Source of the DNA: Nitrospirota bacterium
Lineage (GTDB): Bacteria > Nitrospirota > Thermodesulfovibrionia > Thermodesulfovibrionales > JdFR-88
Assembly (NCBI GenBank): GCA_014874185.1
Contig: JACWAF010000019.1
Location: 62,001-126,000, forward strand
DNA length: 64,000 nucleotides
Direction: 5' to 3'
A program made the translations under genes and the position numbers. The stretch's first letter is position 1. Each line of letters opens with the position of its first letter. Below are positions 53,548 to 61,523 of this stretch, piece by piece. Below the pieces are notes generated by a model. That model did no database searches, was not told the origin of the DNA, and saw only the letters and a list, made by a program, of their open reading frames with translations.

Positions 53548-53817
53548 GTGAAGAAGCCTCCCACCATTCAACACGTGAAGCGCCAGGGCCCGCTGGCCAA
53601 AGCCGGGGCCCCGAACTGCTGGGAATTCAACAACTGCCCCGAACCGACCCGCCTCAGATGCCCCGCCTACCCGGACAACGGCAGGGAATGCTGGAAGGTG
53701 ACCGGCACCCAATGCGCCGAAGGCAGGGACAGCAAGAAAAGCCTCTCGGAAAAGATACTTTACTGCCGGAACGAATGCCTGTTCTACAAGAAACACCTGC
53801 GCAGCATGTTCCCTTAG
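53548..53817 (+). CDS. Two-CW domain protein
   Basis: 89 residues, eight cysteines. The spacing CWEFNNC, RCPAYPDNGRECWKVTGTQC and YCRNECLFYKK is the two-CW domain (two Cys-Trp pairs, likely metal-binding). The domain is often fused to PAS, kinase or chemotaxis proteins in environmental bacteria; here it stands alone beside a sensor kinase, with the two 3' ends overlapping by four bases. The start GTG 53548 lies at the predicted transcription start; no Shine-Dalgarno. A role as redox or metal sensor partner is inference. Confidence 0.82.
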   Translation: MKKPPTIQHVKRQGPLAKAGAPNCWEFNNCPEPTRLRCPAYPDNGRECWKVTGTQCAEGRDSKKSLSEKILYCRNECLFYKKHLRSMFP

Positions 53818-54980
53818 TGCTCATTTCCGTGCAGCGTGATATGGACCATTGTCCCCTCATTTAAGACCGGCTCGAAATCTATATCGCCGTAATTCTTCCG
53901 GAGCGCCATCTTAACTATCGAGAGCCCCAGGCCAGAGCCTTTGGACCTTGTGGAATAAAACGGGGTAAGGATATTCGCGATATTGGCCAGGTTGATCACC
54001 TCGCCGTTATTGAACACATCAACCCGCACCGTGTGCGGCGGGTTTTCCTGGGGGGCCGAGCTTATGCGCACATAAGGCCCCTGCGCCGCCAGCGAGGCAT
54101 CCAGGGCGTTTTCAATCACATGGAAAAAGAGGTCGCGAAGGTCTACAGGGTCCCCCCTTACGAAGCGGGCCTCCGGGCTAAGGAGAATTTCCAGCCTTAC
54201 ACCTTCCAGTTTATTCCGGGCCCTGAGCTTTTCGAGCACGTCATCCATGATGGTCTCAAGCATGCATTTTTCAGGCTTCGCTTCGCGCTGGAAAATGTCC
54301 ATATAGGTATGTATGTCCTCTATCATGTCCTCGCAGCGTGCGGTGTAAGAGATGAGGAAATCGTAATCCTTGTAGAGGGGGTCGGCGGGGCTCATATGGC
54401 GATGCATTCTCCGGAGATTGCCGCCTATTATGGTAACGGGGTTCCTGATCTTGTCCGCTATGCCCCTCAGTATCTCTATATCGCAGCGGACCGTGGCATC
54501 TATATAGGCGCTTGTTTCAACCAGTATGCAGAAATCCATGATCTTGTTCACTATCGGCAGCAGTTCCGCGGTTGTGCCCGCGTCGAAGCTTTCCCGCATT
54601 ACTCCTTGACAGAACTGGCGGACAAGGGAGAAGCCCAGGTTTGAGAAGCGCTGGTCCAGATTTACCTCCACATGCCTCAACCCTATCCGCCATAGATAGC
54701 CGATGAAGTTTGCATCCAGGTCTTCGCGGAAGAGCCTCTCGAACCAGTTGGCCCAGGTCTGTTTCATCCGTTCCGGCTTGTAGCGCTCAAGCAATATGCG
54801 GGTGTCCGTGATCTCGAAGAATGAATTATAGAAGAACTCCGCGAATTCGGCCTTCCTGTTTATGAACACATCCTGGTGCTGGTGGAGCATGGCGATATCG
54901 GCCTCTGTCAATTTCAGCTTTCCTGTTATGAGGCCAAGACTTTGATGGGGAACCGCCGAGACAAGCCCTTTATATTCCAT
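53814..54980 (-). CDS. Protoglobin-domain sensor histidine kinase with substituted H-box
   Basis: 388 residues, soluble. Residues 20-160 form a globin-coupled-sensor (protoglobin) domain with likely heme-binding His103 in GLRHVEVNLDQ. The dimerisation segment reads GIADKIRNPVTIIGG; in related kinases this is xAHxxRNP, so Asp176 occupies the phosphoacceptor position. The ATPase domain is intact (VIENALDASL N-box, GSGLGLSIVKM). It could be a gas-binding (O2, NO, CO) regulator with a missing phosphorylation site, or use another acceptor. Monocistronic; it faces the two-CW gene tail to tail. Confidence 0.82.
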   Translation of the reverse strand: MEYKGLVSAVPHQSLGLITGKLKLTEADIAMLHQHQDVFINRKAEFAEFFYNSFFEITDTRILLERYKPERMKQTWANWFERLFREDLDANFIGYLWRIGLRHVEVNLDQRFSNLGFSLVRQFCQGVMRESFDAGTTAELLPIVNKIMDFCILVETSAYIDATVRCDIEILRGIADKIRNPVTIIGGNLRRMHRHMSPADPLYKDYDFLISYTARCEDMIEDIHTYMDIFQREAKPEKCMLETIMDDVLEKLRARNKLEGVRLEILLSPEARFVRGDPVDLRDLFFHVIENALDASLAAQGPYVRISSAPQENPPHTVRVDVFNNGEVINLANIANILTPFYSTRSKGSGLGLSIVKMALRKNYGDIDFEPVLNEGTMVHITLHGNEH

Positions 54981-56903: not shown

Positions 56904-59048
56904 CTAGTTTCTGCCTGCCCCCAGCACCTCATGAATGGTAGAGAGGAGCTTGCTTCCGGTGAAAGGTTTCTTCAGAACGGCATCGCACCTTACCTGGTCC
57001 CCGGCGCTGAAGCCCGTAATCCCTATCACTTTTACCAGCGGGTTTATTGTGCGTATGCCATCAACCAGCTGGGCCCCGTTCATCGCAGGCATCAGGATGT
57101 CGGTTATCACAAGGTCTATCGAGGCATGTTTTTCCCTGTACATGGCGAGGGCCCTCAACGGGTCTTCGGTGGCGAGCACCTGAAAACCCTTGCGGCTCAA
57201 TATCTCTTCGATTATCTGGAGGATGTCCATCTCGTCATCTATGGCCAGTATGGTCGCATGGCCTCCTATTTCAGATTCCACGACGGGCGTGATCCGGACA
57301 GGAGAACTCACATCCGAAACGGGCAGGTATATCTCGAATGTGGTCCCTTTCCCCGGCCTGCTGTTTACGGTTATATAGCCTTTGTGGGCTTTTACAATGC
57401 CGTATACCATGGCAAGCCCAAGGCCAGTTCCCTTGGCCTTTGCCTTCGTAGTGAAGAACGGCTCAAATATACGGGAAAGGTGTTTTTCACTTATCCCGAC
57501 CCCCGTATCGCTTACGGACAATCTGATGTAGCTGCCAGGCGCCATTTCAGGCAGGGGGAGCGGCGCCCCTTTCTCAAGCTCGAAGGGGGCGGTCAGAATG
57601 AGAAGCTCCCCTCCCTCCGGCATCGCGTCCCTGGCGTTCAGGATGAGGTTCATTATGACCTGCTCTATCTGATTGGGGTCACCCTTGACGGCGGGAATCG
57701 GCTCCATAAGCGCCTTCCGTATCCTTATATTCCGCGGGATGAGCCTCGAAATCATATCCACTGTGTCAGTGATCACCATGTTTATATTAAAAGGATATGT
57801 ATCGAAGTCGGCCCGTCTTGCGAAACTCAGAAGCTTCGATACCAGCTGTGCGGCCTTCCTCGCGGCGCCCTCGATCTGCTTTATGCGCCTGCCCACGCCT
57901 TCCTCCACCTCTTCGTCCAGAAGGATGATCTCGGCAAAGCCCAGGATGGAGGCCAGTATGTTGTTGAAGTCGTGCGCGATGCCCCCGGCAAGCTGCCCGA
58001 CCGAGTCCATCTTCTGTGAATGCAAAAGCTGGCTTTGAAGCCTCTTCTTTTCCGTTATGTCCCTGTGGAAGGCCTGGACAAGTATATTTCCGTCCACTTC
58101 GAGCGCCCTTGAGCTTACCTCCAGGGTGATCTTCTCCCCGTTCTTTTTGTAGTGCCTGGTCTCATACAGGAGGGATTCGCCGTCCAGAATCTGCTGCATC
58201 CTCTCGTGGAAGAGTGCCTTGTCCTCCTCTGTCTCGAAGACGGTGAGGTTGGCCCCGATGAAAGAGTCCCGGTCAAAACCGTGCAGCTCGCAAATCTTGT
58301 TGTTCACGTTCAGTATGGTGCCGCCGGTATCCATTATCATTATGCCGTCGTTTGCGTGCTCGAAGAGGGACCTGTACATCAGCTCGGATTTATTCAGCTC
58401 CCTTGTCCTCTCCTCCACCAGGTTCTCAAGCTGGTTGGAATAGAGCGCGAGGTGTTCCCTTTCCCTGTCAAGGTCGTATTGAAGGCCCAGGTTCTTTATC
58501 AGGGTCTTCTGGCTGAGAGAACGCCAGACAATGGCAAGGAGCATTGTGGAAAGGAAGAAAAAATTATTAGCTATGAAAGTAGCACGATCTGTAATAGGGC
58601 CGGAAAATAGGATAGGTATTATATAAACCAAATAAACGCTCATGCCCAGGATGGCTGAAAAAGCCAGGTTTATCAAGAAAAATCCCAGAACACAGATAAC
58701 TATAAGATTCAGCCCGGCATAATAAAAAGACTTGTGCCCTCCGAGAGCCAAGATCATTATCTCAATGGCAATTGCCGAGGCGATTGTGGCCAGTGAACTG
58801 CTTGCATACAGAAAAAATTTGCTTTTCCCAAGTTTTCGAAAGAGTTTATTTAAAAGAAAAAGGCAGAGCAGTAAACCTGCAACCGAAAGTCTCAATACGA
58901 AAAACATGCTGAATTTTTCAGGACTTACAAAATAGTCCAGTATTCCGAAAAGAAGGAATAGAACAGCCGCAAGGATAAGTATTATATCATACCAATAGCA
59001 GCTTAAATCCAAAAGGCGCGTTTTTATATATTCTTCTCTTTTCATCAA
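56904..59048 (-). CDS. Membrane-bound hybrid histidine kinase (multi-TM sensor, PAS, HK, receiver)
   Basis: 714 residues. Residues 18-175 carry five to six membrane helices with the conserved-looking [19 protein letters not shown] between them, resembling sensor regions found in cyanobacterial and deltaproteobacterial kinases. A coiled coil, a PAS domain (about 222-335), the H-box [14 protein letters not shown] with His359, the ATPase ([21 protein letters not shown]), then a receiver ([25 protein letters not shown]) follow. All catalytic residues are present. It starts nine bases after the PilZ-methyltransferase stop, so it is co-transcribed and is the likely receptor/relay of that pathway. 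No output regulator follows. Confidence 0.9.
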
Positions 59049-59057
59049 ATTAACATT

Positions 59058-60452
59058 CTAAGACTCCTTTGAGATTATAAAGAAATTTATTATGCCTGAA
59101 CGGTCATAAAAGGGATTGAGGAAATTATCGGGAATTTGGGCTTCCTCAAAAAGCCTTCTGCTCTCTGATTCCATGCGGTTCATGAGACCATCCCAATCGA
59201 CAAACCAATGATACCCTTGAGTTCTGTAATGCTCACTATTTTCAAATGCAATAATTAATTTGCCCGCAGGTTTCAGCAAGCCATAAAGAGACTTCATAAG
59301 GCCTATGCTTATTCCGTCCGCAAGATAGTTAAATACGCCTGTGCTATAAATAATGTCATGAGGGCCAAACTCTCTCATGTTCTTTTCCGCATTCAACATC
59401 CTCACCACATTGTACTTCCGGAAGCTTACCTGCGGGGCTATATCCGTATAGGAAAGCCGGTTCAATCCGAAATCCAGCGCATCCGAATCTATATCAAGGC
59501 AGGTCACAGTCGCTCCGGATTTTTTTATCTCCGGGGCGAGTTCAAACAATTCACGGCATGGACCTGAACCAATATCAAGCACTTGGGGCCTTTCCCTTTC
59601 ATCGAGATCTTTTTTCAGGATCTCTTTGAGCTTCTCAAGCCGCCCTCTAACGGCAACCGCCAATTCTGCAGAAAGGAAATATCTGTCAAGAAAATATCCT
59701 ATTCCAGTGGAAAGTGGTAAATTGCGATAAATTCCCTCGATTATCTTGTAATCTCCCTGATAACCCTGGGGCCATACCCTCGCTCTGTTAGTAAAATAGC
59801 TCTGTTTGAAAATATGATCGGTTTTCAGATGAAAATTTTTCCGGGCACTTCTGATTATTTCCAGGTCAGCCGCCCCAAGTTCAAATTTTTCAGCCGAATC
59901 CGTAAAATCGTCCATCGTTTTTTTAAAGATCTCATAATTCGAACCCGTGTTGCTTGTCCCAATGCTTTCCATTTTCTGAATAAAATTTTTGCCTTCCCTG
60001 TCTATAAAATCCAGCCATCTCTTTTCTGTTTCCTTTTTATGCAGGTCCAGATAGGCATCATCCCGGAAATTTACACTCATCCCGCAGGATGCGCATTTTT
60101 CGGCCTGCGGCCGGATTCCGTTTCCGCAATACGGGCACTCATTGTCCCTCAGGTTTTCGCGTATGTAATCCCAGAGCGCGGATGTAACCTGGGGCTCCAT
60201 ATTCATGAATTTCACGGCCGCTCCGTCGCTCTCGTTTCTGAGCACCCGGCCTTTTATCTCCAGTTCTCCCAGGTTGGGAAATGGAGCCCTGATCCTGACC
60301 ACGGTATCCTTTGGCAAAGAGAAAGAGGAATTTATGAACGCACCCCCCAGACCGACATTGGCCGTAACAGACTGGTGCTCGGCTTTCTGCCCGTTCAAGG
60401 GGGTTACGCTTACTGGAATCCTGGCGGCGCATCTTATGTCGATCCTCGCCAT
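59058..60452 (-). CDS. PilZ - zinc ribbon - PhcB-like methyltransferase fusion
   Basis: 464 residues. Residues 1-100: PilZ, with RCAAR (RxxxR, Arg7/Arg11) and ANVGLGGAF (variant of [D/N]xSxxG) for c-di-GMP. Residues 106-123: zinc ribbon CPYC...CASC. A helical region (126-285) with QGYQGDYKIIEGIYRN precedes a class I SAM methyltransferase (VLDIGSGPCRE motif I, CLDIDSDAL, DIIYSTGVFNYLADG, LLKPAGKLIIAF, YHWFVDWDGLMNRM). The C-terminal two thirds resemble PhcB-type 3-OH fatty acid methyl ester (EF) synthases; this is from memory, not a search. Strong GGAGG before ATG 60452. Co-transcribed with the hybrid kinase (gap 9); an HD-GYP gene precedes it by 182 bases. Confidence 0.85.
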   Translation of the reverse strand: MARIDIRCAARIPVSVTPLNGQKAEHQSVTANVGLGGAFINSSFSLPKDTVVRIRAPFPNLGELEIKGRVLRNESDGAAVKFMNMEPQVTSALWDYIRENLRDNECPYCGNGIRPQAEKCASCGMSVNFRDDAYLDLHKKETEKRWLDFIDREGKNFIQKMESIGTSNTGSNYEIFKKTMDDFTDSAEKFELGAADLEIIRSARKNFHLKTDHIFKQSYFTNRARVWPQGYQGDYKIIEGIYRNLPLSTGIGYFLDRYFLSAELAVAVRGRLEKLKEILKKDLDERERPQVLDIGSGPCRELFELAPEIKKSGATVTCLDIDSDALDFGLNRLSYTDIAPQVSFRKYNVVRMLNAEKNMREFGPHDIIYSTGVFNYLADGISIGLMKSLYGLLKPAGKLIIAFENSEHYRTQGYHWFVDWDGLMNRMESESRRLFEEAQIPDNFLNPFYDRSGIINFFIISKES

Positions 60453-60498
60453 AACACCCTCCGATCATGATAAATCTAACCCCGCAAAAACATAGGCG

Positions 60499-60504
60499 AT
60501 TTTA
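60499..60504 (-). promoter_or_regulatory. Possible -10 box of the PilZ-methyltransferase gene
   Basis: TAAAAT on the minus strand (60504-60499) in an A/T-rich stretch 46 bases before the ATG. No clear -35 (TTTAAA is the nearest candidate), so an internal promoter after the HD-GYP gene is possible but weak. Confidence 0.35.
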
Positions 60505-60634
60505 GCATAAGCATAAAAATTTTTAAATAACTATCGTTTAATTGCTGTTTCGATGGCAGCGAGCACCGAATGGTAGATTTGCCCGATAAGAAAGTAAATA
60601 CTGGCTTTAAAACGGCGGGACATCAAACTTCAAT

Positions 60635-61267
60635 TCACATCTTCGGTTGCTCCATATGGTCCATGCCTTCGCCGGCGCTGCACAGAGGGATGCGCCTCAG
60701 GGAAACCCGCCCGTATCTCTTTCCGTAATACCGGCAGAAGGCCTCCACTACATCCGGATCGAACTGCCTGCCGCTGCAGTCCTCCAGGAGGGCAAAGGCC
60801 ATATTTAGATCCATGGGGTTTCTGTAGGGGCGCTTTGACGTAATCGCCTCAAAGAAATCGGCTACGGCGATGACCCTGGCGCCCAGGGGGATCTCATCTC
60901 CTTTAAGCCCCAGCGGATACCCCGTTCCGTCCATCTTCTCGTGATGGTAACCGGCTATTTCCGGAACCTGCCTGTATTTTTCCTCGAGTTGTATCTCTTC
61001 CAGCATCTTCTTTGTTTTTCCAGCGTGCGATTTGACCTCTTCGAATTCCTCTTCGGTCAGTTTGCCCGCTTTTTTAAGGATGGACTTGTTTACTCCTATC
61101 TTCCCGTAATCGTGTAAAAGCGCGGCCACCCTGATGACCTCCTTGAAATCCTGATTGAAACCCAGCTCTTCACATATCCCCAATGCGTACTCCGTGACCT
61201 TTTCGGAATGCCCCTCCGTAAAACAACTGGCATCAATATTTGCCGCAAGCGCGCTGAGGGTGGCCAT
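60635..61267 (-). CDS. HD-GYP domain c-di-GMP phosphodiesterase
   Basis: 210 residues, essentially only the HD-GYP domain. TEGHSEKVTEYALGI, the metal pair His52-Asp53 in LLHDYGKIG, KSHAGKTKKML, GYHHEKMDGTGYPLGLKGDEIPLGARVIAVAD with the GYP at 116-118. It hydrolyses c-di-GMP to GMP. No receiver or PAS sensor is attached, so control is presumably transcriptional: a CRP-type palindrome sits in the promoter. GGGAGAAAG lies upstream of ATG 61267. Next gene downstream is the PilZ-methyltransferase. Confidence 0.93.
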   Translation of the reverse strand: MATLSALAANIDASCFTEGHSEKVTEYALGICEELGFNQDFKEVIRVAALLHDYGKIGVNKSILKKAGKLTEEEFEEVKSHAGKTKKMLEEIQLEEKYRQVPEIAGYHHEKMDGTGYPLGLKGDEIPLGARVIAVADFFEAITSKRPYRNPMDLNMAFALLEDCSGRQFDPDVVEAFCRYYGKRYGRVSLRRIPLCSAGEGMDHMEQPKM

Positions 61268-61368: not shown

Positions 61369-61441
61369 CCTGTATCACATAGGAGATCGCTGGTTTTGGA
61401 AGCAGTTGACGAGGTCACTGGAAATGAAATTGCAAAGGCAG

Positions 61442-61523
61442 TGCGAGAGAGGGGATTTGAACCCCTACAGGTTTCCCCACTGGATCCTAAGTCCAGCGCG
61501 TCTGCCAGTTCCGCCACTCTCGC
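61442..61523 (-). tRNA. tRNA-Leu (TAG)
   Basis: Minus strand: acceptor GCGAGAG/CTCTCGC with discriminator A at 61442; D arm TGGCGGAACTGGCAGACGCG; anticodon stem CTGGA/TCCAG with loop CTTAGGA (anticodon TAG); a class II variable arm (TGGGGAAACCTGT); T arm GGGGTTCAAATCCCC. CCA is not encoded. Confidence 0.95.

Follow-up and report, generated by a model that had tools for sequence, protein, structure and literature searches.

A PilZ-fused EF-type methyltransferase and a neighbouring kinase with a PhcS-type membrane sensor in a Nitrospirota bacterium: a putative synthase-receptor pair

Positions 56904-61267 of the window (the whole stretch of 64,000 nucleotides that was analysed) hold a methyltransferase fused to a PilZ domain, next to a membrane kinase and an HD-GYP gene. 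This raises the question whether these genes form a signalling module in which an enzyme under control of c-di-GMP makes a product that the kinase senses.

Gene layout and the HD-GYP neighbour

All three open reading frames were found on the minus strand, with the same coordinates as in an earlier note made from the letters alone. Together with the Pfam domains they confirmed the gene content described there: a stand-alone HD-GYP phosphodiesterase of 210 residues (60635..61267; HD_5, E 4e-42, with the HD and HHEKxDGxGYP motifs), a 464-residue fusion of PilZ domain, zinc ribbon, helical linker and EF-type class I SAM methyltransferase (59058..60452; Pfam, EF profile, AlphaFold2) and a multi-TM hybrid histidine kinase with a PhcS-type transmembrane (TM) sensor, PAS, HisKA, HATPase and receiver domains (56904..59048; Pfam, PhcS-type profile). 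The methyltransferase stop codon and the TTG of the kinase frame are 9 bases apart. The ATG at 59045 is the likelier kinase start, and an AAGGAG lies within the last methyltransferase codons.

The HD-GYP gene had been taken as a local partner of the other two. Its end and the start of the methyltransferase are 182 bp apart, so the two are only weakly linked. In the related loci examined, no HD-GYP gene stood immediately ahead of the methyltransferase gene; a conserved local partnership was thus not borne out, and the gene probably lies outside the module. The genome encodes 11 GGDEF domains, so that c-di-GMP signalling is available without the neighbouring HD-GYP protein. In three close relatives a receiver-HD-GYP gene is convergent with the kinase (L134 10718-11878, L135 3770-4873 and L137 5997-7115). 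Further features of the surroundings are a minus-strand tRNA-Leu (61441-61523) upstream of the HD-GYP gene and a protoglobin-histidine kinase at 53814-54980, likely an oxygen or gas sensor.

The methyltransferase and its kinase

Pfam placed the class I methyltransferase domain at residues 290-405 of the 464-residue protein. The AlphaFold2 model (mean pLDDT 82) consists of a six-strand barrel with a helix, a helical linker and the methyltransferase, and the Foldseek match lists were occupied by methyltransferases. A broad EF profile, built without the kin of the window protein, scored 149 bits; the match runs over residues 144-463 and takes in the sequence ahead of the Rossmann core. Invariant EF residues, among them R223, P228, G230, G233, D234 and R271, are present; in the KPxGYxGD region ahead of the SAM core the window protein has W where most have the K of KP. 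The enzyme might also belong to an unrelated class I family and share no more than a likeness with EF proteins. The best named alternative in NCBIfam, CpaM, matched residues 265-404 with E 1.4e-11, but its 44 bits fall short of the cut-off of 180. The score of the kin-free EF profile, which extends beyond the Rossmann core, largely rules this reading out, and we regard it as highly improbable.

The relation to PhcB itself was assessed with loci of phcBSRQ-like order from a Paraburkholderia plasmid and other genomes, standing in for Ralstonia PhcB. The gene of the plasmid protein, reached by tblastn, precedes genes for a kinase and two response regulators, and whole-genome searches yielded 14 close homologues of it (52-59% identity), presumably from Burkholderiales. 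In the 11 loci examined the order was methyltransferase, kinase, receiver-kinase and response regulator, as described for phcBSRQ (PMC10653808), and in three comparison kinases the phospho-acceptor His is residue 230, in agreement with what is reported for PhcS (PMC11960443). A profile from the PhcB-like proteins of these operons alone gave the window protein 56 bits (E 3.8e-16). In a tree of 119 sequences, made by a quick method, the window family and the PhcB-like set formed two distinct clades (99 and 100, respectively). Because these clades separate, the window enzyme is, as judged from sequence, a member of the EF/PhcB-like superfamily outside the PhcB clade and no PhcB orthologue, and the PhcB product, a 3-hydroxy fatty acid methyl ester (3-OH PAME/MAME), cannot simply be carried over to it. 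The assignment to a PhcB/EF family made in the earlier note thus stands for the EF superfamily and falls for PhcB proper.

In the kinase, Pfam recognized PAS, HisKA, HATPase and receiver domains behind the membrane region. Five to six TM helices had been counted; a Kyte-Doolittle plot showed five strong segments within residues 1-175, and a sixth near 135-150 is our own reading. The membrane domain (residues 1-205; 58434..59048, minus strand) aligned with the PhcS-type profile with an hhalign probability of 98.8% over 191 columns, as against 0.2% for a 7TM kinase domain used as control in the same test. An HMM of the PhcS-type domain only matched the window kinase as the sole ORF in the window (E 4e-12) and had no match in 96 kb of control loci. 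By these profile searches the membrane part of the kinase is homologous to that of PhcS, which bears out the proposed PhcS-type sensor kinase beside the methyltransferase.

The two genes also keep company elsewhere, as had been predicted. The genome has only two copies of the PhcS-type TM domain, each adjoining an EF methyltransferase. In relatives, 22 of 27 strong methyltransferase loci had the TM domain no more than about 8 kb away on the same contig; of the other five, several are located near contig ends. Across many phyla, 70 of 80 EF loci among the matches listed by one pattern scan, a fraction that is no population estimate, contained a TM-domain gene within the flanking sequence retrieved, and in 63 of these 70 it followed the methyltransferase directly on the same strand. 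The pair was found in Myxococcota, Desulfobacterota, Spirochaetota, Bdellovibrionota, Acidobacteriota, Nitrospirota and others. Homology of both partners, as well as their pairing, is thus well supported.

Several related families carry genes for FabG, two KS, ACP and often FabZ as well as a CrtI-like oxidoreductase between methyltransferase and kinase. The FabG/KS/KS/ACP/FabZ genes inside these operons speak for an acyl chain as substrate in these relatives. The window family has the two-gene form: biosynthetic genes are absent beside the window pair, and no convincing match to the CrtI-like protein was found in the window genome. In one related family the operon is preceded by VTT, Band-7, NfeD and histone-deacetylase-like genes (L145 7596-11386).

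The PilZ domain and possible c-di-GMP binding

The PilZ domain (residues 1-100; 60153..60452, minus strand) matched its Pfam model over residues 7-98 with 34.2 bits (E 3e-8), above the cut-off, and was modelled as a six-strand barrel with a C-terminal helix, residues 1-8 having a pLDDT below 50. A four-cysteine zinc ribbon follows at about residues 104-126 (60075..60143, minus strand). Its Zn_ribbon_3 match (residues 105-125, E 3e-5) was slightly under the curated cut-off; the cysteines, CPYC...CASC in the window protein, are kept as CxxC...CxxC in most relatives.

The earlier note knew of no described enzyme of this family with its own PilZ domain. As a singular case the fusion did not hold up: among 81 EF-family members PilZ was matched in 24, a cNMP-binding domain in 7 and a receiver in 1 (E up to 0.01), so that PilZ-EF fusions are common rather than unique. 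No description of a PilZ-PhcB fusion turned up in literature searches. By inspection, some family members, including the paralogue in the same genome, have no PilZ domain, which is therefore not essential to the pair. The genome contains at least four PilZ domains by a search that missed the window PilZ, which hmmscan detects. The PilZ/zinc-ribbon methyltransferases of the window family were not all grouped together in the tree of 119 methyltransferase sequences, which suggests domain loss or exchange. The EF methyltransferases with an N-terminal cNMP-binding domain (L073, L083, L084, L089, L092, L097 and L100) form one clade in Desulfobacterota, and the one with an N-terminal receiver (L116 722-2161) comes from an Omnitrophota MAG. 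The PilZ/zinc-ribbon module was also seen joined to sigma-54 activators with AAA and HTH_8 domains in the same phylum (L159 5174-6616, L163 5170-6621); for this fusion, too, a literature search found no description.

Whether the window PilZ domain binds c-di-GMP is uncertain. It has R7xxxR11, and its second motif reads N32-V-G-L-G-G37, with Gly replacing the usual Ser. The same EF/PhcS-type pair might therefore carry PilZ as a structural or protein-protein module without c-di-GMP binding, an alternative that we take seriously at somewhat more than one chance in three. It would fit the 13 PilZ/zinc-ribbon/methyltransferase sequences, of which 12 have NxGxxG as motif two and five have lost R11, and there are documented PilZ domains that lack intact motifs and do not bind c-di-GMP reliably (PMC3131395). 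It would also fit a PhcB-like protein (L037 2934-4376), for which a six-strand barrel is predicted at the same N-terminal place and Pfam sees no PilZ. Its strands resemble those of the window barrel in number and spacing, a likeness that we treat as a lead only. The PhcB-like N-terminal region had no Pfam match to PilZ and gave an hhalign probability under 1%, a test of little power, as two sets of Pfam-supported PilZ domains also gave only 0.5%. On the other side, the window protein keeps RxxxR and the Asn of motif two, and in related families both motifs are intact: RxxxR and (D/N)xSxxG were found by eye in six of six PilZ-EF proteins (L144-L146, L148, L149 and L170), three of which were scanned, with two above the Pfam cut-off. 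Binding would be likelier in such relatives with both motifs.

Proposed mechanism and comparison with known systems

We propose, with a probability of about 0.58, that the two genes, like those of PhcB and PhcS, encode a synthase and its receptor: the kinase would sense the acyl-ester product, and PilZ would confer control by c-di-GMP. The methyltransferase would take an acyl chain from the fatty acid pathway and methylate its carboxyl group with SAM; the resulting acyl ester would be diffusible or soluble in the membrane. The TM domain of the kinase, a PhcS-type sensor by homology, would sense this ester or its effect in the membrane and would pass the input on through PAS, kinase and receiver. 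PilZ would set activity or location of the enzyme according to the c-di-GMP level and so tie signal output to the second messenger of surface and biofilm life.

The product might instead stay in the cell, as a membrane lipid, polyene or other bound compound, with the kinase monitoring product or membrane and no signal passing between cells. The KS pair, ACP, FabG, FabZ and CrtI-like genes of the relatives would suit a specialised lipid or polyene as well, and in anammox bacteria an ACP-binding SAM methyltransferase is known, along with FASII clusters proposed to make ladderane lipids (PMC9821293). However, the TM domain of the kinase is of the type of PhcS, which is reported to sense a methyl ester, and the two-gene form exists without extra biosynthetic genes; we consider a cell-bound product unlikely, though worth keeping in mind. 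The proposed synthase-receptor pair can be extended to a broader and more tentative view, to which we would give about one chance in three: the fused PilZ would let c-di-GMP directly gate a diffusible acyl-ester autoinducer synthase, and EF-synthase/PhcS-type-kinase pairs would make up a large class of systems for signalling between cells, for the most part unstudied and spread over many phyla, some with a dedicated fatty-acid or polyketide synthase in the operon. PhcB/PhcS signalling in the literature found concerns Ralstonia and its kin, whereas the pairing seen here spans many phyla, and the input domains of the synthase (PilZ, cNMP-binding, receiver) appear interchangeable across them. If the product is a signal, intracellular second messengers would be wired straight to signal synthesis, and the loci collected here form a list of systems to test.

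The closest known counterpart is the Phc quorum sensing system of Ralstonia, with PhcB as methyltransferase and PhcS as kinase, which the window resembles in having a homologous enzyme and TM sensor encoded by adjoining genes in the same order. It differs in that the methyltransferase belongs to a separate clade and carries a PilZ domain and zinc ribbon detectable by sequence, and the kinase includes a PAS domain and a receiver of its own. Of the order phcB-phcS-phcR-phcQ, the window shows just the B-like and S-like genes side by side, with no PhcR- or PhcQ-like genes next to them. Alg44 and cellulose synthase are examples of PilZ-domain proteins that control an enzyme, and the likeness lies in PilZ as presumed c-di-GMP input; in the window, the output is an EF-type methyltransferase and motif two is altered. 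The EF methyltransferases with cNMP-binding or receiver domains likewise have a sensor domain ahead of the same kind of methyltransferase and often a PhcS-type kinase next door, as in the window, but differ in the input domain.
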